Part shown: in pieces, positions 14,805 to 40,642 of the stretch
How the letters are laid out: each line of letters starts with the position of its first letter
Numbering within the stretch: position 1 is the stretch's first letter
Assembly: GCA_030650845.1 (NCBI GenBank)
Contig: JAUSDC010000085.1
Coordinates: 1 to 42,623, forward strand
Length of the DNA stretch: 42,623 nt
From: Candidatus Methanoperedens sp.
GTDB taxonomy: Archaea > Halobacteriota > Methanosarcinia > Methanosarcinales > Methanoperedenaceae
Direction: 5' to 3'
Notes under the pieces: generated by a model
Seen by the model: only the letters and a program-made list of their open reading frames with translations
Told to the model about the DNA's origin: nothing
Databases searched by the model: none
Translations under genes and position numbers: made by a program

Positions 14805-15257
14805 TTATACACCTTTTCCTTTCGTTTGTTCAATGTGAGATTTAAGGTGCGCTCTGCTCCTGTATTCCCCACCTTTTGCTTTGGCATACAATTTCCTGTA
14901 TGTTGAAACTTCAATGGTCTTATTTTCGCGAAGTTCACTGAGCAAACTGCGCAGAGCCCGGATCTTTTTCATCCACATTTCTTTTTTGGGTCTTCTGGCA
15001 CCTTTAGCCCCGCTTCTTGAGCCATGCCCTTTCCTGTGGCCGTATGCACGTGTCTCTTTCGCCTTGCGTACACGTCCGCGGCTTATCCCTTTGATGGCTC
15101 TTTTGCCAACTTTTCCTTCTTCGATCAACTTTCTAACATCTTCACGCGTCAGAGCAACAGCAATATCTTTTGAAGATTCGGGATTCATCCATACCCTGTT
15201 GACTCCAATATCCATTACTTCTGCTGCCAGACGTCTCTGGTTTTTAAGATCTGTCAT
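14805..15257 (-). CDS. rpl19e: Large-subunit ribosomal protein eL19
   Basis: 150 residues, a helix-rich basic protein specific to archaea and eukaryotes. It has the conserved opening LKNQRRLAAEVMDIGVNRVW and the linker GHRKGHGSRSGAKGAR. The start overlaps the eL32 stop by 4 nt (ATGA), implying coupled translation. Confidence 0.96.
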   Translation of the reverse strand: MTDLKNQRRLAAEVMDIGVNRVWMNPESSKDIAVALTREDVRKLIEEGKVGKRAIKGISRGRVRKAKETRAYGHRKGHGSRSGAKGARRPKKEMWMKKIRALRSLLSELRENKTIEVSTYRKLYAKAKGGEYRSRAHLKSHIEQTKGKGV

Positions 15258-15898
15258 GTTGCTACCCTCCTTGTGGGGTTCAATATCTTAAGTCCAAGCT
15301 CGATCGCTTTTTTCTCGATTATTGCGCGTTTTCTTCCCCCAACAGTATGGGCTATCATGACCGCCTGTGTTTGTGCTATCAAGGAATCAAGATCGTTCGG
15401 TGTACTCACAAGGATCTCTTCAAATCCTGAAGGATGAAGTCCTTTTACGAGCACCGGGCTTCCAAATCCTCTTTCTACACGTGGGCATTTTCCTTTAACA
15501 CCATACCTGGTCTTGTTATGGATACCGTCTGGTCTTCTCCAGTAATCCTTAAGTTTCTTTTTCTTGTGGGAATCAGTCTGAAGGAAATGCGGCTTCTTGC
15601 TTTTCTGTTTCTTTCTGACATCAAGAAGTCTTTTTGTTTCATCATCAATGGTAATGAATATCTCTGGAGCTTCAATGATCTCTACAGATTTCTCTTCCAC
15701 TTCTGGTTCGGCCTCACCTGCAGATGCCTTGATCTTGCCTGCAAGTTTTTCTCCAATTCCCTTGATATCCGCGATATCCTTTACATCTGCTTTCTGGATT
15801 GATTCAATTGTTACATACCCTGCTTCATAGAGTAATTTGGCTTTGGCTTTTCCAACCCCGTCCAGGGTCGTAAGCTGTTTTATTGCTTCGTCTTCCAT
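15254..15898 (-). CDS. rpl32e: Large-subunit ribosomal protein eL32 with an N-terminal helix-hairpin-helix domain
   Basis: 214 residues. eL32 proper occupies about the last 130 residues (LLDVRKKQKSKKPHFLQTDS, then YGVKGKCPRVERGFGSP). Ahead of it lies a helix-hairpin-helix pair (about 5-58) with LDGVGKAKAKLLYEAGY and IKGIGEKLAGKI, resembling the N-terminal domain of RadA, and a Glu-rich linker. Extended eL32 of this type is known in some euryarchaea; the domain's role is not established. The ATG at 15898 (MEDEAIKQ) is chosen because it lies 4 nt after the uL6 stop; the frame is open 38 codons upstream inside uL6. Confidence 0.93.
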   Translation of the reverse strand: MEDEAIKQLTTLDGVGKAKAKLLYEAGYVTIESIQKADVKDIADIKGIGEKLAGKIKASAGEAEPEVEEKSVEIIEAPEIFITIDDETKRLLDVRKKQKSKKPHFLQTDSHKKKKLKDYWRRPDGIHNKTRYGVKGKCPRVERGFGSPVLVKGLHPSGFEEILVSTPNDLDSLIAQTQAVMIAHTVGGRKRAIIEKKAIELGLKILNPTRRVAT

Positions 15899-25897: not shown

Positions 25898-27061
25898 ATG
25901 TTATACAACCATGAAAAAAATCTCAAATCAACTGAAGAGAGAATAAGAAACTCAAGTATCAACGAAGCAAACAAACAGCATATTTTTGAGTTTGAAAACT
26001 ATTGTTTTTCCGACGGTCTGAAGATAGCCAGAGTATTGAAGCATCTAACCGAATTAAAAGTGCTTGCTGAAATGGTAGGACAAGATTTCAAGAGCATGCC
26101 CAAGCAGGATATGATGACGCTTGTAGGCCGTATTGAGCGCATGGACAGGGAAGAAAGGACTAAACAGGACTACAAGAGCCTGATCAGAAAATTCTTCAGA
26201 TGGCTTGGCAGGGAAGATATTGTGGACTGGATAAAAATACCAATGAGAAAAGACTCAAGAAAGCTTCCTGAAGATATGCTCAGCCAGGAAGAGATCGAGA
26301 AAATGATCAATGCCTGCGAACATCCCAGGGACAGGGCAATGGTAGCCTGTCTTTATGAAAGCGGCACCAGGATAAGCGAACTTGGAGATATGAAGATCAA
26401 GCATGTGAAGTTTGATCAGTATGGAGCCGTTCTCATAGTGGACGGCAAGACAGGCATGCGAAGAGTAAGAATAATTTTTTCATCACCTTACTTGGCTACC
26501 TGGCTTGAAAATCATCCCTTCCGGGATAATCCAGAGGCTTTTGTCTGGGTCGGGATAGGTACGGTTGGCAGGAATGTGCCATTGCAATACGGTGCTATCA
26601 GGATGCATCTTAAAAGAATAGCTTTGAAGGCTGGAATAAAGAAAAGAATCCATCCTCATCTATTCAGGCACAGCAGGAGCACTCATTTAGCAAAACATCT
26701 AACTGAGGCACAAATGAAGCAGTATCTTGGATGGGTACAGGGCAGCGATATGGCAGCCATTTATGTCCACCTCTCAGGCAGAGACGTTGATGATGCACTT
26801 CTAAAGATGCACGGGATAGTCACCGATGAAAAAAAAGATGTTCAAATGAGTCCTAAGAAATGCACCCGATGCAGTGTAATGAATTCTCCCACAACGAAGT
26901 TCTGCTCCAAGTGCGGTCTTGCCCTTGACATCAAGGCAGCCTTAGAGATTGAAGAGAAGAGTTCAGAGGTTACAATGGATTTCATGCAGGTTGCACAGAG
27001 CGATCCAAAGATAGTGGATTTCATGAAGATGCTTTTGGAATCGGTATCAACCAAAGCATAA
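25898..27061 (+). CDS. Tyrosine recombinase (integrase) with a C-terminal zinc ribbon
   Basis: 387 residues. The N-terminal core-binding domain (about 10-110) is followed by the catalytic domain with Arg158 (YESGTRISEL), a Lys in VDGKTG (184), the HxxR box at His254/Arg257 (HPHLFRHSR) and the nucleophile Tyr289 (AAIYVHLSG). After about residue 315 there is a CxxC...CxxC zinc ribbon (Cys322, 325, 336, 339), an addition seen in some archaeal integrases. Its position right after tRNA-Leu marks it as the recombinase of an integrated element. All catalytic residues are present, so it may be active. GGAGAG precedes the ATG. Confidence 0.92.
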   Translation: MLYNHEKNLKSTEERIRNSSINEANKQHIFEFENYCFSDGLKIARVLKHLTELKVLAEMVGQDFKSMPKQDMMTLVGRIERMDREERTKQDYKSLIRKFFRWLGREDIVDWIKIPMRKDSRKLPEDMLSQEEIEKMINACEHPRDRAMVACLYESGTRISELGDMKIKHVKFDQYGAVLIVDGKTGMRRVRIIFSSPYLATWLENHPFRDNPEAFVWVGIGTVGRNVPLQYGAIRMHLKRIALKAGIKKRIHPHLFRHSRSTHLAKHLTEAQMKQYLGWVQGSDMAAIYVHLSGRDVDDALLKMHGIVTDEKKDVQMSPKKCTRCSVMNSPTTKFCSKCGLALDIKAALEIEEKSSEVTMDFMQVAQSDPKIVDFMKMLLESVSTKA

Positions 27062-28616: not shown

Positions 28617-30206
28617 ATGGCTTCAGTAGGTAAGCGGCAGGAGAAACAGGCAAGAGAGACCATGAAGCTTCGCGAGAAAGATTCAAGGAAGCAGGATAAG
28701 GAAAGAGAAAATTACAGGAAGCTCCAGGAGGATGGAGTCCTCTTCTCCGAGAAGCTGTTCACCATGCGCGGGAAGTCGATGAGTTTCGAGGAATTCCCGT
28801 ATGTGAAGCAGGTCTTCCATGACAATGCCAGGATAGTCGTGCTTCTCTGGGCAAGGAGCATGACCAAGACAACAAGTATTGCAAGTATTCTCACACACAA
28901 GCTCATCACCAATGCCTATTCAGGAGCGATGGTCGCTGCACCGCGAGATAAACAGGCTTGGCGTGTCACTAAGGAGCATATCCGTCCGAGGTTCACAGAG
29001 AGCAGGGATAAGATGCTTCTGCCCTTAATTTCTCAGGGTAAGAATACTGAGTCCGAGATCGATATTGCCAATGGATCAAAGTATCTGGCAAGCGGTGCAT
29101 GGGTTACAGGTAACAGTTTAAGAGGACCTCACGTTAATTATGGCTTTGCAGATGAGATGCAGGACTGGACAAGAGAAGCATTTGAAGTATTCAAGGAGGT
29201 CGTGAACCTGCCGCCAGGTCAGATATTCTGTGCAGGTACGCCGAAAGATAAAGGTTCATTCTTTGAAGAGATATGGCTTTCAAGTGACAAGAAGGAGTGG
29301 AATGGGAAGGAATGGATACCTACAAATCCCAATGCAGACCCTCAGATAAGCGGGTATCATATCACTCAAGAGTTTTCGAGTTTTGTTACGCCTGAGCAGC
29401 TGGAGTATAAACGCAAGAACATGACCCCAAGGATGTTTATCAATGAAGTACTCGCACAGTTCTTTGCAGCAGGTGGCGCTAAACCTGTTACTACTGACAC
29501 GCTGTTACAGATCCTTGTGAGAAACCCTGAGGAACTCAGCAACACAGTATTCGAGGAAAAGGTGATTGGTGTAGACTGGGGCGATGAGACTCGCTGGGTT
29601 CTGGTGGGAAGGACCACGAAGAACAAGTTTTATGTTATAGACACCGGGGTCTTTGATGACATTGATACCATGAAGCATGTCGAGAAGCTGAAACTGTTAG
29701 TCTCACGGGAAAACCCGAAATGGATAATATGCGATGCAGGGTACGGCAAGACCAAGAACCAGATTTTGATGAGGTATTATCCCGGAAAGGTCTGGAGCGC
29801 ATTTACTAATTCGGGTTCAAATATCCCGATCTGGAATATGATCAAGGAGATAAATGGTCTCCCGCTTCCAGAGGATGACTGGCAGTATCATGTCAGCATC
29901 AATCATACAGCGATGTGCGAGAATACTGAAGCTATTATAAACAGGCGGAATCTGGGAATATATTATTTCCCGGAGCAGGCTGCCAGAACGGATGTGTTTA
30001 TATTTGAGGTATCGCAGGCTGAGGCTGAAGAGGTTTCTACTTCGACCGGTAAACAGCGGAGGTTCTCGATCACTTTTGCACATGGGTATGCAGCCCTGTC
30101 TTACGCTCTGCTTCCCTATGCATTCGGGCAGGACTACACTGAGGCAGGCTATAACCAGAATGTGATGACCAGAGCGCCGAGGTTTGCACGGCGAAGGATC
30201 GCTTGA
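28617..30206 (+). CDS. Terminase large subunit (TerL) of an archaeal tailed-virus-like element
   Basis: 529 residues, normal TerL length. The ATPase half has a Walker-A-like segment ARSMTKTTS (79-87) and Walker B FADE (177-180). The RNase H-like nuclease half has the first acidic site in VIGVDWGDET (about 319) and a second in WIICDAGYGK (about 372). TerL packages viral DNA into procapsids. No portal, protease or capsid gene follows, so the element is incomplete here. The TGA stop is followed in frame by 65 open codons (see next entry). Confidence 0.85.
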   Translation: MASVGKRQEKQARETMKLREKDSRKQDKERENYRKLQEDGVLFSEKLFTMRGKSMSFEEFPYVKQVFHDNARIVVLLWARSMTKTTSIASILTHKLITNAYSGAMVAAPRDKQAWRVTKEHIRPRFTESRDKMLLPLISQGKNTESEIDIANGSKYLASGAWVTGNSLRGPHVNYGFADEMQDWTREAFEVFKEVVNLPPGQIFCAGTPKDKGSFFEEIWLSSDKKEWNGKEWIPTNPNADPQISGYHITQEFSSFVTPEQLEYKRKNMTPRMFINEVLAQFFAAGGAKPVTTDTLLQILVRNPEELSNTVFEEKVIGVDWGDETRWVLVGRTTKNKFYVIDTGVFDDIDTMKHVEKLKLLVSRENPKWIICDAGYGKTKNQILMRYYPGKVWSAFTNSGSNIPIWNMIKEINGLPLPEDDWQYHVSINHTAMCENTEAIINRRNLGIYYFPEQAARTDVFIFEVSQAEAEEVSTSTGKQRRFSITFAHGYAALSYALLPYAFGQDYTEAGYNQNVMTRAPRFARRRIA

Positions 30207-30404
30207 ACCTCGACCGAAGGCTATGTTAAGGTAAAGCTGCCTGGGGTTCGGCTATATATCTCAGAAAGACTTGACAGAAAGACCAGGCGTGCATTAAACT
30301 GTCTGATGGATTACCAGATAGCAAAGTTCCAGTGGTGGAGCAGGAGACACAGCGAGGTTCAGCAGGAGCTGCTCCAGAAAGCCCTGGACGCTACCCAGAC
30401 CTAA
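30207..30404 (+). pseudogene. Open segment in frame with TerL, likely a decayed gene piece
   Basis: After the TerL TGA the same frame stays open for 65 codons to TAA at 30402. The peptide is charged and protein-like (VKLPGVRLYISERLDRK..., QWWSRRHSEVQQELLQ). It has no ATG at its front; the only in-frame ATG is at 30306 and would give 32 residues. It may be the remnant of a downstream viral gene or, less likely, a TerL extension reached by readthrough. Confidence 0.4.
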
Positions 30405-30568: not shown

Positions 30569-30678
30569 GTTGCACCCTCATATCATCAGGAATGTGTCCT
30601 GAAACAATAAAAGAATCGTGTAGAAAAGACATGAAATAAATTGTGCACCCTCATATCATCAGGAATGTGTCCTGAAAC
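30569..30678 (+). CRISPR. CRISPR cluster 1: two 37-nt repeats and one 36-nt spacer
   Basis: Repeats at 30569-30605 and 30642-30678 are identical over the last 34 nt and differ only in the first three. Each begins GTTGCACCCTCATATCAT (first copy) and ends CAGGAATGTGTCCTGAAAC. The 3' half folds into a TCAGGA/TCCTGA hairpin and ends in GAAAC, as in type III-like crRNA handles, which favours plus-strand transcription. The spacer is 30606-30641. The sequence after 30678 could be a final, unclosed spacer or plain flank. Confidence 0.85.
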
Positions 30679-30811
30679 AGCCCACAAATCAGGCTTCGTT
30701 TCCCATTTCGAGTTTAATAATGCCTTGAAATAGGAACAATCATGTACAAATCTCAAAACCAATACACTATTTATAAAGACTTGCACAGATTTACTATACT
30801 TTCCGTATCAG

Positions 30812-30853
30812 GAAAGCCAGCATCGTACCTCATCCTCAGAACAGGGTATTCAT
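30812..30853. repeat. 42-nt direct repeat, copy 1 (12 nt past the cas5 stop)
   Basis: It starts GAAAGCCAGCATCGTACC and ends AACAGGGTATTCAT. 40 of 42 positions match the copy at 32946-32987. In minus-strand terms it is immediately downstream of cas5. It does not match the CRISPR repeats. Confidence 0.8.
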
Positions 30854-30865
30854 TAATTCAATCAC

Positions 30866-31912
30866 TTAACTTACCACAAACTCCCCCTTTCCAAAACTTG
30901 TTCGATCACCCATACCTCTTAACATTTCTGCCATTGCAAGCGCATTAAAGAATTCCGGAACAGCATCAGTCACCTGGTATCTAAATCGTGTGCCTCTTGA
31001 AATAACACTCTTTGGCGCATCAAATTTAGGTTTTCCGGTTTTTACTTTCAGGTCAAGGAAACTTAAATTGACAAGAAGTTCGACTGGTTTTTCAATATGT
31101 GTTATCTTAGGACCTTTATACTGCGCGAAATCAGGATCGAAGAACTTAGCCGCATTTTTTGCATCTCTTACAATATCTTCACCTGATAGCGGGAAGCTGC
31201 AGATGGTATCAGAGAAAAGATGAATCCACATTTTTCCATCTTCATCCATTACAATCTGGGAAAGGATCTTTGCTCTCTTTTTGATATCATCCATCGTAAT
31301 GGGCAGGATTATTAATTTCTTGAGGAGGACCTTTCCAAGCCCCTTTGAGTTGCGCTTACCGAGATACAAACCATTATCCTCAACACATTTCAGGGCCGAG
31401 ATAAATTCTGCCAGATATTCTTCGTTTAGCTTTTCATCTTCGGCGTTTTTTGCTTTCATGTTGAAGATCGCTTCGAACCTGAACCTGTTTTTGCTTGAGA
31501 CAACATCGGTCGTGTACATATTCTTGACAGTTCCTCCACTGCCAAGCGATATTCCAGCCATTGGCTGTCTAATTGCGGGATATTTATCAATATGCAGGCA
31601 TTCACTGCATTCGTAAACCACCTGTCTTATGCCTTTATCCAATTTAACGACAGGAATAAAAGTGCCGTCATGATGTTTTATCAGGGCATCCTTGAAATAG
31701 ATAACAGGATGTCCATTCTCAAGAGTGTCTGCGATCTTGCTTTTCATTTCAAGAAAAAGGTATCCGAATGCGCCTCTTAGATTCTGACCTAATGGGTACA
31801 TATCACTTTCTTTTATCTGTGATCCCCTTTCGGTATAGGTATTATTTGTGGCTATATGCAGCTCTGACTGGTTTTCAAGTTCTCCCTGTATTTTAAAAGC
31901 CAGAGGCTTCAT
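30866..31912 (-). CDS. cas5: Cas5-like double-RAMP protein of a type VII-like CRISPR system
   Basis: 348 residues from ATG 31912, which overlaps the cas7 stop (ATGA). The frame is open 19 codons further upstream, inside cas7. The protein is of the RAMP superfamily. A first glycine-rich loop, GLYLGKRNSKGLGK, lies at about 181-194 and a second, RGMGDRTSFGKGEF, at the C-terminus (about 331-345), so two RRM-like folds are likely. The N-terminal motif PLGQNLRGAFGYLF resembles the SSLRGALR segment of Csm4/Csx10/Cas5 proteins. In type III and VII complexes this subunit caps the backbone and holds the 5' handle of the crRNA. A single CxxC (CSEC) lies near residue 102. Assignment to Cas5 rather than Csm4 or Csx10 depends on the neighbouring beta-CASP gene and the lack of cas10. 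Confidence 0.75.
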   Translation of the reverse strand: MKPLAFKIQGELENQSELHIATNNTYTERGSQIKESDMYPLGQNLRGAFGYLFLEMKSKIADTLENGHPVIYFKDALIKHHDGTFIPVVKLDKGIRQVVYECSECLHIDKYPAIRQPMAGISLGSGGTVKNMYTTDVVSSKNRFRFEAIFNMKAKNAEDEKLNEEYLAEFISALKCVEDNGLYLGKRNSKGLGKVLLKKLIILPITMDDIKKRAKILSQIVMDEDGKMWIHLFSDTICSFPLSGEDIVRDAKNAAKFFDPDFAQYKGPKITHIEKPVELLVNLSFLDLKVKTGKPKFDAPKSVISRGTRFRYQVTDAVPEFFNALAMAEMLRGMGDRTSFGKGEFVVS

Positions 31913-32556
31913 TTCATGCTCACCAGCTTCTTGGCTTCCGCTGCCCCTTGTTCTTTGTAGTTTGTCCATTTAACCTTTTTTGCAGTTACTTCAAACTTAA
32001 CTCGCCCTTTCCCGCGCCGCGTCCATCCACCTATTCCATTATCTTCAGCTGCCTTGAGTGCAGCATTCAGGACTTCTATATCCTTTTCAGTAGGGTTCTT
32101 GATAATGATCCTGCCTGTCAGTTCAGTTCCTTCTACGATCTCTTCAAGCTCAATTGACGCGCCTTTTCCAGCGGATAGGGTACCTGTTTCCCTGTCAATG
32201 TGCGGATGCACTGTTCTTTCAACTACTTTATCAAAGGGTCTGACAGATTTTAGATCTTCAAAGGATACTCTTCCTTTTCGTCCCAGATTTCCGAACATAT
32301 CGCATGTTAGACATCTCCCGCAGCCTTTAGTGTCTTTTCCGGTATCACATGTCCCGGCGTCTTTATAGATCTTCTCTGCATACCCACGAATTGCTCCGAA
32401 GATACTGATCGATGCGAATCCATCTCCCGACATCCTTGTCGGTAGCAGATTTCCCTGCTTTCTTCTTTTCTGGCTTTCCAGTTTATTCTCCCCGGTATAG
32501 AGAGGTGACACTGCTGTTGCTTTCAGTTCTAATATCCATAAGTCTTCATTTAACAT
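31909..32556 (-). CDS. cas7: Cas7 (RAMP backbone subunit) with a four-Cys zinc site
   Basis: 215 residues of Csm3/Cmr4 type. It has the N-terminal strand LKATAVSPLYTG, the segment SIFGAIRGYAEKIY matching the SSLKGxLR helix, four Cys at 70, 79, 82 and 85 (CGRCLTC included) followed by MFG, and the glycine-rich loop GGWTRRGKGRVKF (176-188). Cas7 copies polymerise along the crRNA. I see no obvious counterpart of the catalytic Asp of Csm3 in the thumb-like region KRRKQGNLLPTR; if correct, cutting must come from another subunit, here the beta-CASP protein. AGAAAGGAG precedes the ATG. Confidence 0.82.
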   Translation of the reverse strand: MLNEDLWILELKATAVSPLYTGENKLESQKRRKQGNLLPTRMSGDGFASISIFGAIRGYAEKIYKDAGTCDTGKDTKGCGRCLTCDMFGNLGRKGRVSFEDLKSVRPFDKVVERTVHPHIDRETGTLSAGKGASIELEEIVEGTELTGRIIIKNPTEKDIEVLNAALKAAEDNGIGGWTRRGKGRVKFEVTAKKVKWTNYKEQGAAEAKKLVSMK

Positions 32557-32697
32557 TGTTTTAACTCCTTTCTAATAGTATTGGAAAATCACCCAGTCGA
32601 ATGATAACTTTGAGTTAAATGTATTTATTAGTAATAAATCCTTCAATTTTATCGTCTTTGAGATGCCATAGATGTTTCAAAAGACAAATCCAATATC

Positions 32698-32870
32698 GTT
32701 GCATCCTCATATCATAGGAAACTCGCTCTACGAAAAATTTAAAGATGTGTTGATACAGGACAGTACAATAATGTTGCCTCCTCATATCATTGGAAACTCG
32801 CTCTTCAATATCAACCTTCAGTGCTACATCAATTTTGCTGCCTCATATCATCAGCAGGTCGTTCTGTGAC
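32698..32870 (+). CRISPR. CRISPR cluster 2: three diverged repeats
   Basis: Repeat units begin at 32698, 32773 and about 32834. The first two share GTTGC-(A/C)TCCTCATATCAT and GGAAACTCGCTCT. The third, less similar, keeps TGCTGCCTCATATCATCAG and ends TTCTGTGAC, with a TCA-CAG/CTG-TGA hairpin. The spacing is irregular (75 and 61 nt). All copies are relatives of clusters 1 and 3 in the 5' half but not in the 3' half. The cluster is antisense to the cas genes and looks degraded. Confidence 0.7.
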
Positions 32871-32945
32871 AGCAGATTCAATTATCGATTTTTTCTTGGA
32901 TGTTCTATCATTACTGGCAATTTATAGAACCATTTATAAGAGCAA

Positions 32946-32987
32946 GAAAGCCAGCATCGTACCCCATCCTCAAAACAGGGTATTCAT
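32946..32987. repeat. 42-nt direct repeat, copy 2 (41 nt past the cas14 stop)
   Basis: Matches the copy at 30812-30853 at 40 of 42 positions. Both differences are transitions (T/C and G/A). In minus-strand terms it follows cas14 directly, as copy 1 follows cas5. Confidence 0.8.
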
Positions 32988-33028: not shown

Positions 33029-34951
33029 TTACTTTATTTCGGTAAACACTCGATTAAGTGATGACTGCAAATTTGATGTTTCCATTAAAGAGCTTCTTTT
33101 CAATAAGTCTTCCAGTTGTCCTGAAATAAGAGACCTGTCCGGGATTTGAATTCCTTTGCGGTGCAAATCATTTTCATCCAGAATCAATGCATCGTTTTTA
33201 ATCTTCTTGTCGATAATCTTCCTATATTCGCTTATCCCGCGCTCTGATGCATCCATCAGGTCCCTGATAAGGCCTTTAGAAATATAACCTGCCTTAAAAA
33301 TTTTAATCAAACCCATTACCAACTCTTCAGGTGATGGAGGAGTCGCACTCGATAGAGTCTCAGGCTGGATTTGGGTTTCTGGAATAATTATTTCATCATG
33401 GAGAGGTTTTACCATTTCCCTTTTCATATTATGAAGCATTTCCTCTATTTCACGTACAGAAACAAGAGAATATTCGTCACCATTATCAATTATTCCGCCT
33501 GCGAAAAGAGCTATCTTTTTACCTGATATATTTTCAAAATTCAACCGGACATTTCCAGTTGATATTCCCTTGATTATTGTTCTTTCTCTCACTTCACCTG
33601 CTGCCAGGTCATATTTTTCGTTCGTTTTTGGAACAACCGTTTTTATCCTGAATTTCTCTTTTATGGCATCAGATAATTCCAGGGATGCTTCCCTCTCTCC
33701 ATGTACGATGAAAACTTTTACAGGCAATGTCTTAAAACAATCGATATAATTTAAAAGTGCAGTCTTATCAGCATGAGCGGAAAGCCCTTCAATTTTCCTG
33801 ATCTGCGCTTTTACTTTTACAGGTATTCCATCCACATTCACTTCTGGATTTCCATTTATGATATCCCTTCCTAGAGTCCCTTCTGCCTGGAAACCTGAAA
33901 AAAGCAATATATTTTTTTCATCCGGAAGGAATCTGGGCAGGTATTTCCTGATACGCCCACCTTCCAGCATTCCTGAGCTTGCAAGAATTATGCATGATTC
34001 GCTTGATTCAGCAAGTTCATCGCTATTTTTTCTTGCTCTTAATCTCTCGAAATTATCAGGGTGGAATATTTTATCAAGTTCCTTTGAATTCCTTTTTATG
34101 AACTCATCTGAAATCTTTGATAATAGATATTTATTATGTGAATAGATATCAAGAATATCAATTCCCATAGGAGTATCAAGATATATTTTTTCTTTGATAT
34201 TCAATTCACGCAGCATGAAGAGGATCTCTTCAGCTCTATCTACGGAAAAAATAGGTATCAAAAGTCTTGAGGTATTCTTCTTGATTGATTCAACAGCAGC
34301 TTTCAATTGCGATAATATTTCAATATGGCTTTTTTCAAGGCTTCGGTTTCCGTATGTACTTTCGATAATAAGATAATCACATGAAGCAGGAGGTTTTGGG
34401 ATAGAGTGAAGGCTGGATGAGCCACCGCCAATGTCGCCCGTATATAAGAGGGAAACCGGGTTTTCTATGAAAATAGACGAACTACCCAGGATATGTTCTG
34501 ATGGGATGAATTTAATCTTTATCATTTTTCCATCATCCTGCCATTGCGGATAATCTTCATTTACTGGAACAAAAAAGCTTTTTGCTTTTTTTACATCATC
34601 TTCTGAGAATAATAATTCATCGCCTTCTTCTTTCTGAATTCTTAAAGAGTCATCCATTATTCGAAATGTTATTTCCCTTGTCGCAGGAGTTGTTATGATC
34701 TCACCTTTGAACCCCCTCTGGCATAACATCGGCAATCTGCCGGTATGGTCATAATGTGCATGGGTCAAGAAAATATAATCTATTTCAGCAGGATCAAATG
34801 CAAGAGGCGCTGAATTCTTATCTTTTGCATCAGTTCCCTGAAAAGCTCCTGCATCAAGAAGTATTTTCTTATCTTCAATTGTCAGGAGATGCATTGACCC
34901 TGTGACTTCACATGCTGCACCGCAAAATTGGATAGTGATTGGACTGGACAT
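33029..34951 (-). CDS. cas14: Cas14-type beta-CASP metallo-beta-lactamase nuclease (type VII effector)
   Basis: 640 residues. Every metal motif of a beta-CASP RNase is present: Asp33 (LLDAGAFQG), HAHYDH at 64-69, His153 (SEHILGSSS), Asp173 (YTGDIGG), motif A Glu197 (ESTYG), motif B His393 (GLSAHADK) and motif C His418 (VHGERE). It is therefore expected to be an active zinc-dependent RNase. After about 455 comes a C-terminal region of about 185 residues that is absent from ordinary short beta-CASP RNases; in known type VII systems such a region contacts the Cas7 backbone. It lacks the N-terminal KH domains of archaeal aCPSF1. The CRISPR clusters on both sides and the cas7-cas5 pair downstream support the Cas14 call. 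This name must not be confused with the older use of Cas14 for Cas12f. A housekeeping aCPSF2-like role is the alternative. Confidence 0.8.
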   Translation of the reverse strand: MSSPITIQFCGAACEVTGSMHLLTIEDKKILLDAGAFQGTDAKDKNSAPLAFDPAEIDYIFLTHAHYDHTGRLPMLCQRGFKGEIITTPATREITFRIMDDSLRIQKEEGDELLFSEDDVKKAKSFFVPVNEDYPQWQDDGKMIKIKFIPSEHILGSSSIFIENPVSLLYTGDIGGGSSSLHSIPKPPASCDYLIIESTYGNRSLEKSHIEILSQLKAAVESIKKNTSRLLIPIFSVDRAEEILFMLRELNIKEKIYLDTPMGIDILDIYSHNKYLLSKISDEFIKRNSKELDKIFHPDNFERLRARKNSDELAESSESCIILASSGMLEGGRIRKYLPRFLPDEKNILLFSGFQAEGTLGRDIINGNPEVNVDGIPVKVKAQIRKIEGLSAHADKTALLNYIDCFKTLPVKVFIVHGEREASLELSDAIKEKFRIKTVVPKTNEKYDLAAGEVRERTIIKGISTGNVRLNFENISGKKIALFAGGIIDNGDEYSLVSVREIEEMLHNMKREMVKPLHDEIIIPETQIQPETLSSATPPSPEELVMGLIKIFKAGYISKGLIRDLMDASERGISEYRKIIDKKIKNDALILDENDLHRKGIQIPDRSLISGQLEDLLKRSSLMETSNLQSSLNRVFTEIK

Positions 34952-35157: not shown

Positions 35158-35482
35158 GTTGGCGAAGAACGTGCCAATGATATGAGGCAGCAACCATCTA
35201 TCTTCTTTCCATATTTGTAGAACTTATTGTTGGCGAGGAACGTGCTAATGATATGAGGCAGCAACTTAATAGAGGTATTTGTATCATTGTCGGCTACCAG
35301 GTTGGCGAGGAACGTGCCAATGATATGAGGCAGCAACCAATGTTTTGTACAGAAGCCCGTTCTGTTCAGTGGTTGACGAAGAATGTGCCAATGATATGAG
35401 GCAGCAACCTTATAGTAGCTTCATTATTGAATGCAGATAAGACTGGTTGGCGAGGAAAGTGCCAATGATATAGCTCTGATAA
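35158..35482 (-). CRISPR. CRISPR cluster 3: five 37-nt repeats, four spacers
   Basis: Repeats lie at 35158-35194, 35229-35265, 35301-35337, 35372-35408 and 35446-35482, with spacers of 34, 35, 34 and 37 nt. On the minus strand the unit begins GTTGCTGCCTCATATCAT and ends TGGCACGTTCCTCGCCAAC, with a TTGGC/GCCAA hairpin. Copies vary at several positions and the 35446 copy is degraded in one half. The strand is assigned by likeness to cluster 1 and by a strong TATA (TTTTATATATTAAA, minus strand, about 35539-35552) about 60 nt ahead of the first repeat; the opposite orientation cannot be excluded. There is no adaptation gene nearby. Confidence 0.88.
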
Positions 35483-36967: not shown

Positions 36968-38020
36968 ATGCGAGAAAAGCACCCCATACACACTACACTC
37001 AGTACAGATGCAATGAGGATACTTGAACGTTATGAGAAAGAGCTTGGCACAAAGAACACCGTGCTTGAACGGGCTCTACTTGGAATGGATAAGCTCCGCT
37101 TTAAAGACAAGATAGATACCCAGAGTATAATCAGGATCATCAGAAGAATAAAGACAGGTATTCCCGGCTTTGACGGACTTATCGAAGGCGGGATACCAGA
37201 GGGTTTTGTTGTAGTGGTAACAGGACCTCCCGGCACAGGAAAGACCACGTTCTCGCTTCAGTTTTTGCTTGAGGGGGTAAAGAATAATGAGAGATGCATA
37301 TTTTTCTCGTTCGAAGAAAATGCAGAGCAACTAATAAACCAGAGCATACGCTTTGGATGGGATTTCGGAGAATATGTTGATAAGGGGTATCTCGAGATAT
37401 TTGGGTTTAGCAGGTTTTCAACAGAGGAGATAACAGAGATCATTGATATTTTCAAGCCCAAAAGGATTGTTTTCGATTCACTTAATATTTTCTCTGATAT
37501 CACCGACTTCAGAAGGTCACCTCAATGGCGAAATATCCTGAAAGTAATAAAGGATAAGAAAATAACATGTCTAGCTGTTACTGAAAAGAGCCACGGTGGT
37601 AGTGCAAATGAATTTGATGAATTTGACTTTATGGGGGATGGTGTTATCTCGTTCGATAAAAAACAGAAAAACGAATTTGACACTTACCCGACCTGCAATA
37701 TTCAGATACAGAAAATGCGATTGACAAAGTTGAATGAAATAGCTCACCAGTTTGTTATAAAAGAGAATGGAATAGAACTTATTGGTAACATGGGTATAGA
37801 AAGAAAGGCATTCAATACGTTACATGCTAACAGGGCAAAAATTGAACGTATTACGACGATAGACCGTGAATTACGTATCTCCCTGAACTCCATTATAGGC
37901 TTCTCTGAACTCATGATAGTAAAAGCGCCAGGGGATCTTAATGAAAAGCAGGAACGATACGTTCAGAATGTCCATGCAAGCGGTAAGCATCTGCTTGAAC
38001 TTATTCAAAAAAGATCCTGA
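36968..38020 (+). CDS. KaiC-like ATPase with an N-terminal ribbon-helix-helix-like part and a C-terminal DHp-like part
   Basis: 350 residues in three parts. Residues 1-42 (HTTLSTDAMRILERYEKELG...NTVLERALLG) follow a ribbon-helix-helix pattern. Residues 62-285 are a RecA/KaiC-type ATPase with Walker A GPPGTGKTT (86-94) and Walker B RIVFDSLN. Residues 295-345 (LRISLNSIIGFSELM...NEKQERYVQNVHASGKHLLEL) match the dimerisation helices of histidine kinases, but the phospho-His of the HELR motif is Arg (DRELR), and no ATPase domain of the kinase follows. A signalling or transcription switch is plausible. The 3' end overlaps the convergent cohesin gene by 16 nt, so the protein may be cut short. Confidence 0.8.
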   Translation: MREKHPIHTTLSTDAMRILERYEKELGTKNTVLERALLGMDKLRFKDKIDTQSIIRIIRRIKTGIPGFDGLIEGGIPEGFVVVVTGPPGTGKTTFSLQFLLEGVKNNERCIFFSFEENAEQLINQSIRFGWDFGEYVDKGYLEIFGFSRFSTEEITEIIDIFKPKRIVFDSLNIFSDITDFRRSPQWRNILKVIKDKKITCLAVTEKSHGGSANEFDEFDFMGDGVISFDKKQKNEFDTYPTCNIQIQKMRLTKLNEIAHQFVIKENGIELIGNMGIERKAFNTLHANRAKIERITTIDRELRISLNSIIGFSELMIVKAPGDLNEKQERYVQNVHASGKHLLELIQKRS

Positions 38021-39291
38021 TGTATCCTAAAGGGATTTGAAAACATTTTTTTTTTTGGTTTTCTGATCCAAATAATTAAAGTGACATTTAATACAATACC
38101 TATGAATATACCGGTAATAAGATATTTGTTTAGATTTCCAGGACTCTCTGCCTCGTTTCCAACATTGCTTACTTGTTTTTCCATTTGTTGAGATTCTGTA
38201 TTTGCGGTCGTCTGGGGGATCAAGTTGTAGCTTCCGCCGTATGATATTTTGCCTGTTATGGCATGCGGAGAGAAACGTGTGGTACTGGCTTCATAGTATA
38301 TCCATTCAGATGTTTCACTTATCTTTTTTGTTGAAAGTGGCTCCCATGCACCCTGGTAATGCATCATAGTTATGGAATCCGGATCAATACTGTTGGATCT
38401 CATCCACGATACAGGTACTCTGAAGGTGATCTCAGCGTGCTTTATGTTCGTGGGTGTTGCAAACCCATAAGTTCCAACCCAGATATTGACGTTCTTAAAT
38501 ACGGTATCTGGTGCCGGGTCTTTTACAAGTGAAGAGGTGTTGCGGAGCACTTCAACTGCTGTATTGATCTCTCCAGGGCTTATGTTTGCTGTGATGTTGA
38601 TGCAGATTATTGGATTGGTCGCATTTCTGAAGCAGTATGATGTGGGGATATCTTTATTAATGAAACGATCGAATTTTTCTTTCAGCTGGATGTTATTGAA
38701 ATCCTCACCAGAAGTTCCTCCTGCGCCACCACCCCCACCACCGCCGCCACTGCTGGCGCTACCACTGCTCCCTCCACCACTCCCCACACTACCGCTATTT
38801 ATCGAAACTGAACCGTTTATTATATTAACTTCGAGGGCATTGCTATCTGGATCGCTAACGATCATATGTGTGAGATTTAGCCGTGAACTGCCGGTATTCT
38901 TTGCATTCATGGTTATCGTTGAAATGTTGGCTTTTGTTGTAACATTTGCTCCAGGTGTGATGATCAGCCCCCATACATTGATCAGAGTACCATCAGAATT
39001 GTTTAAAATGCCTGAATTGAATGCAGTATTAGCTCCATTCTGGTTAAACAGGTTACCTTCAGTAATGCTTTTTATTTCGAGAACGGAGCTGTCAAACAGC
39101 AGGTTGAATTGTGCTCCTGTGATGGGATTATTAAAGGGATCGATCGATATGTTGATACTAAAGTCCTGCCCTACCTCCCCGATTTGAATGTCTGAAGTAA
39201 CACTAACTTCCACCGGTGCTGCAAATGCACTTACAGCAGTGCTTAATATGATCAGCACAATTAATGACAAGTTCAAATACGATGTTTTCAT
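38005..39291 (-). CDS. Cohesin-domain surface protein with PGF-pre-PGF-like region and membrane anchor
   Basis: 428 residues. It has a signal peptide (about 1-24, ending AFAAP) and a cohesin domain (about 26-165) with AQFNLLFDSSVLEIKSITEG and SGILNNSDGTLINVWGLIITP. A flexible linker of Gly and Ser (about 168-195) follows, then a PGF-pre-PGF-like domain (about 245-345), one membrane helix (about 388-408) and a basic tail. Cohesins bind dockerins; a dockerin is encoded in the same cluster (41266-41856). It is held on the cell surface. Confidence 0.83.
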   Translation of the reverse strand: MKTSYLNLSLIVLIILSTAVSAFAAPVEVSVTSDIQIGEVGQDFSINISIDPFNNPITGAQFNLLFDSSVLEIKSITEGNLFNQNGANTAFNSGILNNSDGTLINVWGLIITPGANVTTKANISTITMNAKNTGSSRLNLTHMIVSDPDSNALEVNIINGSVSINSGSVGSGGGSSGSASSGGGGGGGGAGGTSGEDFNNIQLKEKFDRFINKDIPTSYCFRNATNPIICINITANISPGEINTAVEVLRNTSSLVKDPAPDTVFKNVNIWVGTYGFATPTNIKHAEITFRVPVSWMRSNSIDPDSITMMHYQGAWEPLSTKKISETSEWIYYEASTTRFSPHAITGKISYGGSYNLIPQTTANTESQQMEKQVSNVGNEAESPGNLNKYLITGIFIGIVLNVTLIIWIRKPKKKMFSNPFRIHQDLF

Positions 39292-39559: not shown

Positions 39560-40642
39560 TCAATATTTTGTCCTTGTTGAATGATTTACCCAGGTCTGGT
39601 TAGTATTGCCAGAGGAGTCCACAGTACGTGTGCTTATGGCATAGAGATAACCCGCTCTAAGGCCGGTGGCATTGTAATACCTCACGCCCTTTAATGCCGT
39701 AGTCTTATATACTCCGTTCAAGTAGATCATCACTTTGGCGAAATCCGCATCTACAGGGTCTGTCCAGGTCCAGTTGATATATTTTTGCGCATAGGTGGAG
39801 TTCTTAAGTGACCGGATACCGGTAGGGGGGTAAATATCAGGGTTAGTCCTTGCTGAATGGTTCACCCATGCGCTGTTAATATTTCCTGACGAATCTGATG
39901 TCTTTGTGCTTATCGTATAAAGCGAACCGGGCGAGAGGCCGGAGGCATTGTATTGCTTAACTCCTTTTTTTACTCTTGTCTTGAATACACCGTTCAAATA
40001 GATCATCACGTCCTTAAAATCCGCATCTACAGGGTCTGTCCACCTCCAGGTGATGTAGCGCTGCTTATACGTGATGTTCCTGAGGCTCCTGACACTGGCC
40101 GGAGGTGTATAATCGATGCCGTACACACTGACCAACAGGTTGGTCTTACCGGCAGGGATGGACAGGCTGCTGGTATTGCTGATCATCACATTTGTGAGAT
40201 TAAGCTTTGAGGTTCCAATATTTTTTGCATACATTGTGATGCTGGCCAGTGTCCCCTTCGCAGTAACGCTTGCACCGGGTGAGATAATGAGACTCCATAC
40301 ATTGACAAGGCTACCGTCGCTGTTGTTCGTTGTGCCGTTGTCGAAAATGGTCTTCACGCCGGCATTTTTGAAAAGATTGCCTTCAGTGATGCTTTTTACG
40401 TCGAGAACTGAGGCGTCGAAAATGAGGTTGAATTGTGCTGATGAAATTGAATTGTATGCAGGGTCAACAGAAATATTGACGGTGAAGTCCTTTCCTTTCT
40501 CAATGGAAAGGGAGGGCGTGTTGACACTTATTCCAACGGGGGACGCAGCACCGATCCCGGCGGATAATATTAAAAAAATGGCCACGAGAAAAGTAAGATC
40601 AGTATAAACTGTTTGAGCTTTTTTTTGACTGCGACTCATCAT
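39560..40642 (-). CDS. Secreted cohesin protein with two fibronectin-III-like domains
   Basis: 360 residues. Signal peptide about 1-34; cohesin domain about 35-175 with SAQFNLIFDASVLDVKSITEG, a close relative of the other two cohesins in the cluster. Two fibronectin-like repeats follow (about 180-265 and 270-355), each with an ITWRWTDPVDADF / INWTWTDPVDADF phrase. There is no membrane anchor, so the protein is either released or bound to the surface by another partner. Confidence 0.83.
   Translation of the reverse strand: MMSRSQKKAQTVYTDLTFLVAIFLILSAGIGAASPVGISVNTPSLSIEKGKDFTVNISVDPAYNSISSAQFNLIFDASVLDVKSITEGNLFKNAGVKTIFDNGTTNNSDGSLVNVWSLIISPGASVTAKGTLASITMYAKNIGTSKLNLTNVMISNTSSLSIPAGKTNLLVSVYGIDYTPPASVRSLRNITYKQRYITWRWTDPVDADFKDVMIYLNGVFKTRVKKGVKQYNASGLSPGSLYTISTKTSDSSGNINSAWVNHSARTNPDIYPPTGIRSLKNSTYAQKYINWTWTDPVDADFAKVMIYLNGVYKTTALKGVRYYNATGLRAGYLYAISTRTVDSSGNTNQTWVNHSTRTKY

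Follow-up and report, generated by a model that had tools for sequence, protein, structure and literature searches.

Gene content and organization of the locus

The window analyzed here is the whole stretch of 42,623 nucleotides formed by positions 1 to 42,623 of contig JAUSDC010000085.1 from Candidatus Methanoperedens sp. (assembly GCA_030650845.1). Analysis of its gene content revealed a type VII CRISPR-Cas locus (Cas14, Cas7, and Cas5) of this methane-oxidizing archaeon; type VII is a rare CRISPR type. The following features were located, some of which have counterparts in the related genomes BLZ2 and METP1.

30569..30679, minus strand: CRISPR array 1, two repeats
30680..30811, minus strand: array 1 leader (82% identical to BLZ2); positions 30770-30777 contain a TATA-like box (TTTATAAA)
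30812..30853, minus strand: 42-nt element, copy 1, 12 nt past the cas5 stop, with array 1 132 nt further; orthologue in BLZ2 and METP1
30866..31969, minus strand: cas5 (type VII); weak matches to type III-D Cas5 and, at E 1e-4, to the Cas5 subunit of the solved type VII complex
31909..32556, minus strand: cas7 (type VII); matches Pfam RAMPs and, at E 1.6e-36, the Cas7 subunit of the solved type VII complex
32698..32871, minus strand: CRISPR array 2, with three repeats that have diverged; BLZ2 and METP1 lack it
32872..32945, minus strand: array 2 leader (71% identical to BLZ2), which contains two TATA-like boxes (32933-32940 and 32921-32928)
32946..32987, minus strand: 42-nt element, copy 2, 41 nt past the cas14 stop, with array 2 ~75 nt further
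33029..34951, minus strand: cas14, beta-CASP nuclease, type VII signature; Protein Data Bank Cas14 8yhd (E 9e-73)
35158..35480, plus strand: CRISPR array 3, five repeats, on the opposite strand beyond cas14

The order on the coding strand is cas14, 42-mer, array 2, cas7, cas5, 42-mer, array 1. The match to 8yhd spans Cas14 residues 7-572, and the NCBIfam model NF045584 is matched with 444 bits, which lies under its curated cut-off of 800 bits. The Pfam domains Beta-Casp and RMMBL are present in Cas14, and the protein has the beta-CASP nuclease and the Cas10-like C-terminal domain that characterize type VII. Cas7 and Cas5 are encoded beside cas14, the repeats are diverged, and no match to the adaptation genes cas1 or cas2 was obtained among the ten neighboring genes scanned. 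The repeats of arrays 1 to 3 diverge in their 5' half and have ATGATATGAGG in common.

Type VII loci, in the parts of PMC10910872 and PMC12669027 considered here, comprise cas14-cas7-cas5 with diverged repeats and lack adaptation genes. The locus in the window resembles them in its cas14, cas7, and cas5 genes and its diverged repeats. In the distant type VII locus L178, an array is positioned between cas14 and cas7, as in the window, and a repeat core (ATGATATGAG) related to ATGATATGAGG is also present.

A 42-nt element follows both cas14 and cas5

A first-pass annotation of the window had described a 42-nt direct repeat with differing flanks. Alignment of 30812-30853 with 32946-32987 revealed 40 of 42 identical positions without gaps, and the likeness ends at the edges of the element, in agreement with that description. 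The best match of any other 42-mer in the window is 24/42. By a rough estimate (~1e9 position pairs and a per-base match of ~0.27), fewer than 1e-9 such pairs are expected by chance. The stop codon of cas5 (30866-30868, minus strand) is separated from copy 1 by 12 nt, and that of cas14 (33029-33031, minus strand) from copy 2 by 41 nt, so that the annotated distance of 12 to 41 nt was confirmed. The coordinates likewise agree with the claim that the two copies bracket cas5, cas7, and array 2.

The annotation had placed the copies just downstream of cas genes. This is true, and describing them as lying shortly before arrays or cas7-cas5 fits equally well. Both copies precede a CRISPR array in sense orientation (copy 2, ~75 nt, array 2; copy 1, 132 nt, array 1). 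An array follows the element in three of the four independent instances; in the fourth, copy 2 of BLZ2, array 2 has been lost, and the element still lies upstream of cas7-cas5, in METP1 as in BLZ2. In every instance, the element lies in sense orientation, closely follows a cas stop codon, and is itself closely followed by an array or by cas7-cas5. Array 3 has no 42-nt element.

A 17-nt core (GGTACGATGCTGGCTTT) is unchanged in all six copies from the window, BLZ2, and METP1. Copy 2 has an orthologue in BLZ2 and METP1 that carries a 2-nt insertion, and its conservation extends into a pyrimidine-rich tract (GGCTTTCTTGCTCTTATA) that copy 1 does not have.

The element occurs twice per genome and only with type VII genes

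According to the first-pass annotation, many copies at unrelated genes in this genome or its relatives would make the element a generic dispersed repeat. The search returned two copies per genome, in type VII genomes only. No third copy with up to three mismatches was detected in the source genome, either over the full length or with a 23-nt core. The type VII cas5 gene is present in 3 of the 31 genomes of the genus, and the motif is present in the same three, each with two copies at the same two positions. The strict pattern counts one copy in METP1, because METP1 copy 1 carries one substitution; this copy was located separately. In an exact scan for the 17-nt core across ~85,000 species, BLZ2 and METP1 were the only ones with two copies on a contig, and the 33 single matches elsewhere are about the number expected by chance.

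As no further copies lie at unrelated sites, a dispersed genomic repeat or the end of a mobile element was rejected. An origin of the element from a phage, plasmid, or virus was rejected as well, since searches of phages and plasmids gave no relative; the lone viral match of the 17-nt core has unlike flanks and is a chance match. No cas5 relatives were found in viral contigs.

A fourth Methanoperedens genome (G008; locus L203, contig C101) contains array 3 and the start of cas14, whose protein is 96% identical. The contig breaks off within cas14, before both positions of the 42-mer, and counts neither for nor against the element. Orphan repeats in three other Methanoperedens genomes are lone matches, and no 42-mer was found beside any of them.

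Among the distant type VII loci examined, none contained a detectable copy of the element. That search gave scattered low P values among many tests, none convincing after correction; uncorrected examples are 0.005 for L180 (after cas7) and 0.015 for L178 (after cas5). The absence of the element from these loci marks it as a trait of the Methanoperedens branch and not of all type VII systems. At the cas14-array junction of L178, a 9-bp inverted repeat (AAAAGCCAA..TTGGCTTTT) surrounds GGATGAGGT; its faint likeness to the 42-mer is not significant and may be due to chance.

Both copies evolve more slowly than neutral sites

The genomes of BLZ2 and METP1 are 98.7% identical and were counted as one lineage, which gives two independent lineages in total. 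Between the window and BLZ2, 39 of 42 positions (93%) are identical in copy 1 and likewise 39/42 (93%) in copy 2, apart from the 2-nt insertion in BLZ2. The corresponding values are 329/429 (77%) at four-fold degenerate codon sites and 202/262 (77%) in intergenic flank columns. For both copies together, Fisher's test gave P values of ~3e-4 against the four-fold sites and ~6e-4 against the flanks (~0.01 for one copy alone). Both copies thus evolve about three times more slowly than neutral sites. This test is not circular, because the region was picked by the likeness of the copies within one genome and not by likeness between genomes. Judged from these substitution rates, on two lineages only, the comparison favors selection on both copies.

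The block common to the window and BLZ2 extends from 30569 to ~34963, from array 1 through cas14, and the genes on either side of it show no synteny. Both copies lie inside this block and not at its ends. The first-pass annotation had listed scars of a cassette insertion among its explanations, and a neutral relic would be of that kind: a rearrangement that placed array 2 and cas7-cas5 after cas14 and ahead of array 1 would have left a 42-bp duplication behind. The direct repeats do flank cas7-cas5-array 2, and a second duplication (the first 51 bp of cas14, 2.4 kb away) exists at the BLZ2 locus. However, both copies change well below the neutral rate, each with 93% identity compared to 77% at four-fold sites and flanks, and the shared block extends past both of them. 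These results argue for selection rather than a scar, and a neutral relic is considered improbable.

A leader-distal regulatory site is the preferred explanation

The element is probably a control signal for the type VII system and not a chance repeat. Regarding its mode of action, our tentative preference, which falls short of an even chance, is a selected, locus-specific, cis-acting site of the leader-distal kind that is shared by two transcription units. The element lies upstream, in sense, of what would be one unit after cas14 (array 2 and cas7-cas5) and another after cas5 (array 1). A putative DNA-binding factor would recognize it as a shared leader-distal binding site, and binding would coordinate the transcription of guides and effector subunits from nearby TATA boxes. 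The action on DNA, the identity of this factor, and the control of promoters by the element are points that we infer.

A leader motif is expected to be a conserved sequence upstream of an array in the sense of transcription, and such a sequence is what three of the four instances contain. Two further observations support the leader-site reading. Copy 2 has been kept before cas7-cas5 in BLZ2 and METP1 despite the loss of array 2, and the elements remain 95% identical, whereas identity between the repeats of arrays 1 and 2 has dropped to 64-72%.

Perfect (8/8) TATA-like boxes occur downstream of both copies in the window, with a chance probability of ~0.12 each, which is not significant for either alone. 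The distance from element to box is unequal between the copies (about 5-18 versus 34 nt), and in BLZ2 the box beside copy 2 is degraded, with the best box located on the upstream side of the element. Because the distances and the BLZ2 boxes differ in this way, promoter control is only presumed. The 2-nt insertion in BLZ2 copy 2 falls between two conserved blocks and is awkward for one rigid DNA footprint. The lack of an element at array 3 is a point against a leader site, and no linked regulator gene common to the loci was seen.

A similar arrangement is known from the type I-A arrays of Sulfolobus, in which a leader-distal motif is bound by Csa3a (PMC9456107); a Csa3a site has also been described in leader promoters (PMC10883916). 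Like the Sulfolobus motif, the 42-nt element is short and conserved, occupies the far end of an archaeal leader, has the same orientation relative to the array, and occurs at more than one array. In contrast to Sulfolobus, the locus is of type VII with no csa3 or cas1/cas2 found beside it, the first repeat lies ~75 and 132 nt from the element, and the element also precedes cas7-cas5 without an array (BLZ2). In the parts of the type VII literature considered here, the expression and processing of guides are little reported, and a leader element of this sort is neither mentioned nor described. A short selected element at both boundaries between an open reading frame and an array offers a concrete handle with which to locate the promoter and the processing site, as well as any regulator.

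Signals at the RNA level

The main rival, which follows close behind the upstream regulatory site although it is itself somewhat unlikely, is a 3'-end or processing signal in the 3' untranslated regions of cas14 and cas5. At such a signal the polycistron would be cut, ended, or protected, and mRNA would be parted from pre-crRNA. Apart from the orientation, a position just after a cas stop codon is the sole context found in all four independent instances, and it holds for BLZ2 copy 2, which has no array. The conserved pyrimidine-rich tract beyond copy 2 is consistent with such a signal, but copy 1 has none. A UACCy...rGGUA hairpin keeps 94% of its pair cells and includes one two-sided change from C-G to U-A; this covariation was equaled by shuffles in 289 of 500 cases, and the consensus fold contains no two-sided change. 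Folding z-scores of the copies with their flanks range from about -1.7 to +0.7, and the best structures differ between copies. These ordinary folding energies and the differences between copies favor selection on the primary sequence. A scan for sigma-70 promoters and terminators gave no site at the element, and no Rfam family was found at or near it.

The nuclease aCPSF1 (FttA), which terminates transcription in archaea, works on U-rich tracts throughout the genome. It shares the beta-CASP superfamily with Cas14, which scores 287 bits against the aCPSF1 model and has a match to FttA; this kinship makes a role at 3' ends thinkable. Unlike aCPSF1 sites, the 42-nt element is limited to one locus, and its copy 1 has no U-rich tract. 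As a long shot, the 42-mer might be an RNA site for self-recognition by the type VII system, at which Cas14 would cut the cas14 and cas5 transcripts without a guide. If so, the arrays would be released and effector levels capped by feedback, and a CRISPR nuclease would have retained a host-like role in 3'-end processing.

Less probable explanations

It is very unlikely that the element is a CRISPR repeat remnant, is related to such a repeat, or acts as a guide-like RNA on its own. The 3' part of the element aligns to the last array 2 repeat and the bases that follow it (TGAtATGAGGAT--GcaACGATatTGGaTTT) with uncorrected P values of 0.006 to 0.024, but 13 of 566 window tiles score equally well. 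For single repeats, P lay between 0.03 and 0.5 in the same orientation and exceeded 0.4 in the opposite one, and with a best value of 0.03 before correction over 24 tests the similarity is not significant, which upholds the earlier statement that the copies are not variants of the CRISPR repeats. The guide-like RNA proposed in the first-pass annotation is disfavored: the 42-mer has no standout complementarity to repeats or spacers, no spacer or target was found for it, and it lacks a guide-like extension. Among the four options of that annotation, a regulatory or processing signal therefore fits, and the insertion scar and the guide-like RNA do not fare well.

A site of recombination or attachment, for excising or exchanging the segment of cas7-cas5 and array, is more doubtful still. 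The copies are in direct orientation, a XerA-like tyrosine recombinase is encoded in the window at 25898-27061, and the BLZ2 locus has different surroundings; however, the excised form occurs in no genome, the block that moves exceeds the bracketed segment in size, and inverted arms of the Xer type were not seen by eye. Regulation through translation of a micro-ORF (MNTLF*, ATGAATACCYTGTTYTGA) can nearly be dismissed: two of its three variable sites are synonymous, but no ribosome-binding site lies close upstream, METP1 has a Thr-to-Ala change, and conservation peaks after the stop codon.

Genomic surroundings

The gene for the XerA-like recombinase (plus strand) and a gene for a terminase large subunit (28617-30206, plus strand; phrog_675, E 4e-41) are located beside array 1. 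The terminase and the recombinase mark a virus-like or integrated element that adjoins the type VII locus. The end of the terminase gene with a few bases beyond it (window 30021-30210; 15207-15364 of the BLZ2 locus, L161) recurs with 86-91% identity in BLZ2 and METP1, close to their type VII locus but on its cas14 side. The type VII locus may move together with the same element or insert near it.

In BLZ2, the two copies of the first 51 bp of cas14 (L161, 9682-9732 and 12064-12114; 84% identical) enclose a cassette with an HTH regulator and other genes. This duplication is a trace of insertion or allele exchange where cas14 begins. Two neighboring genes of the window, at 38005-39291 and 39560-40642 (minus strand), encode proteins with cohesin domains (Pfam PF00963).
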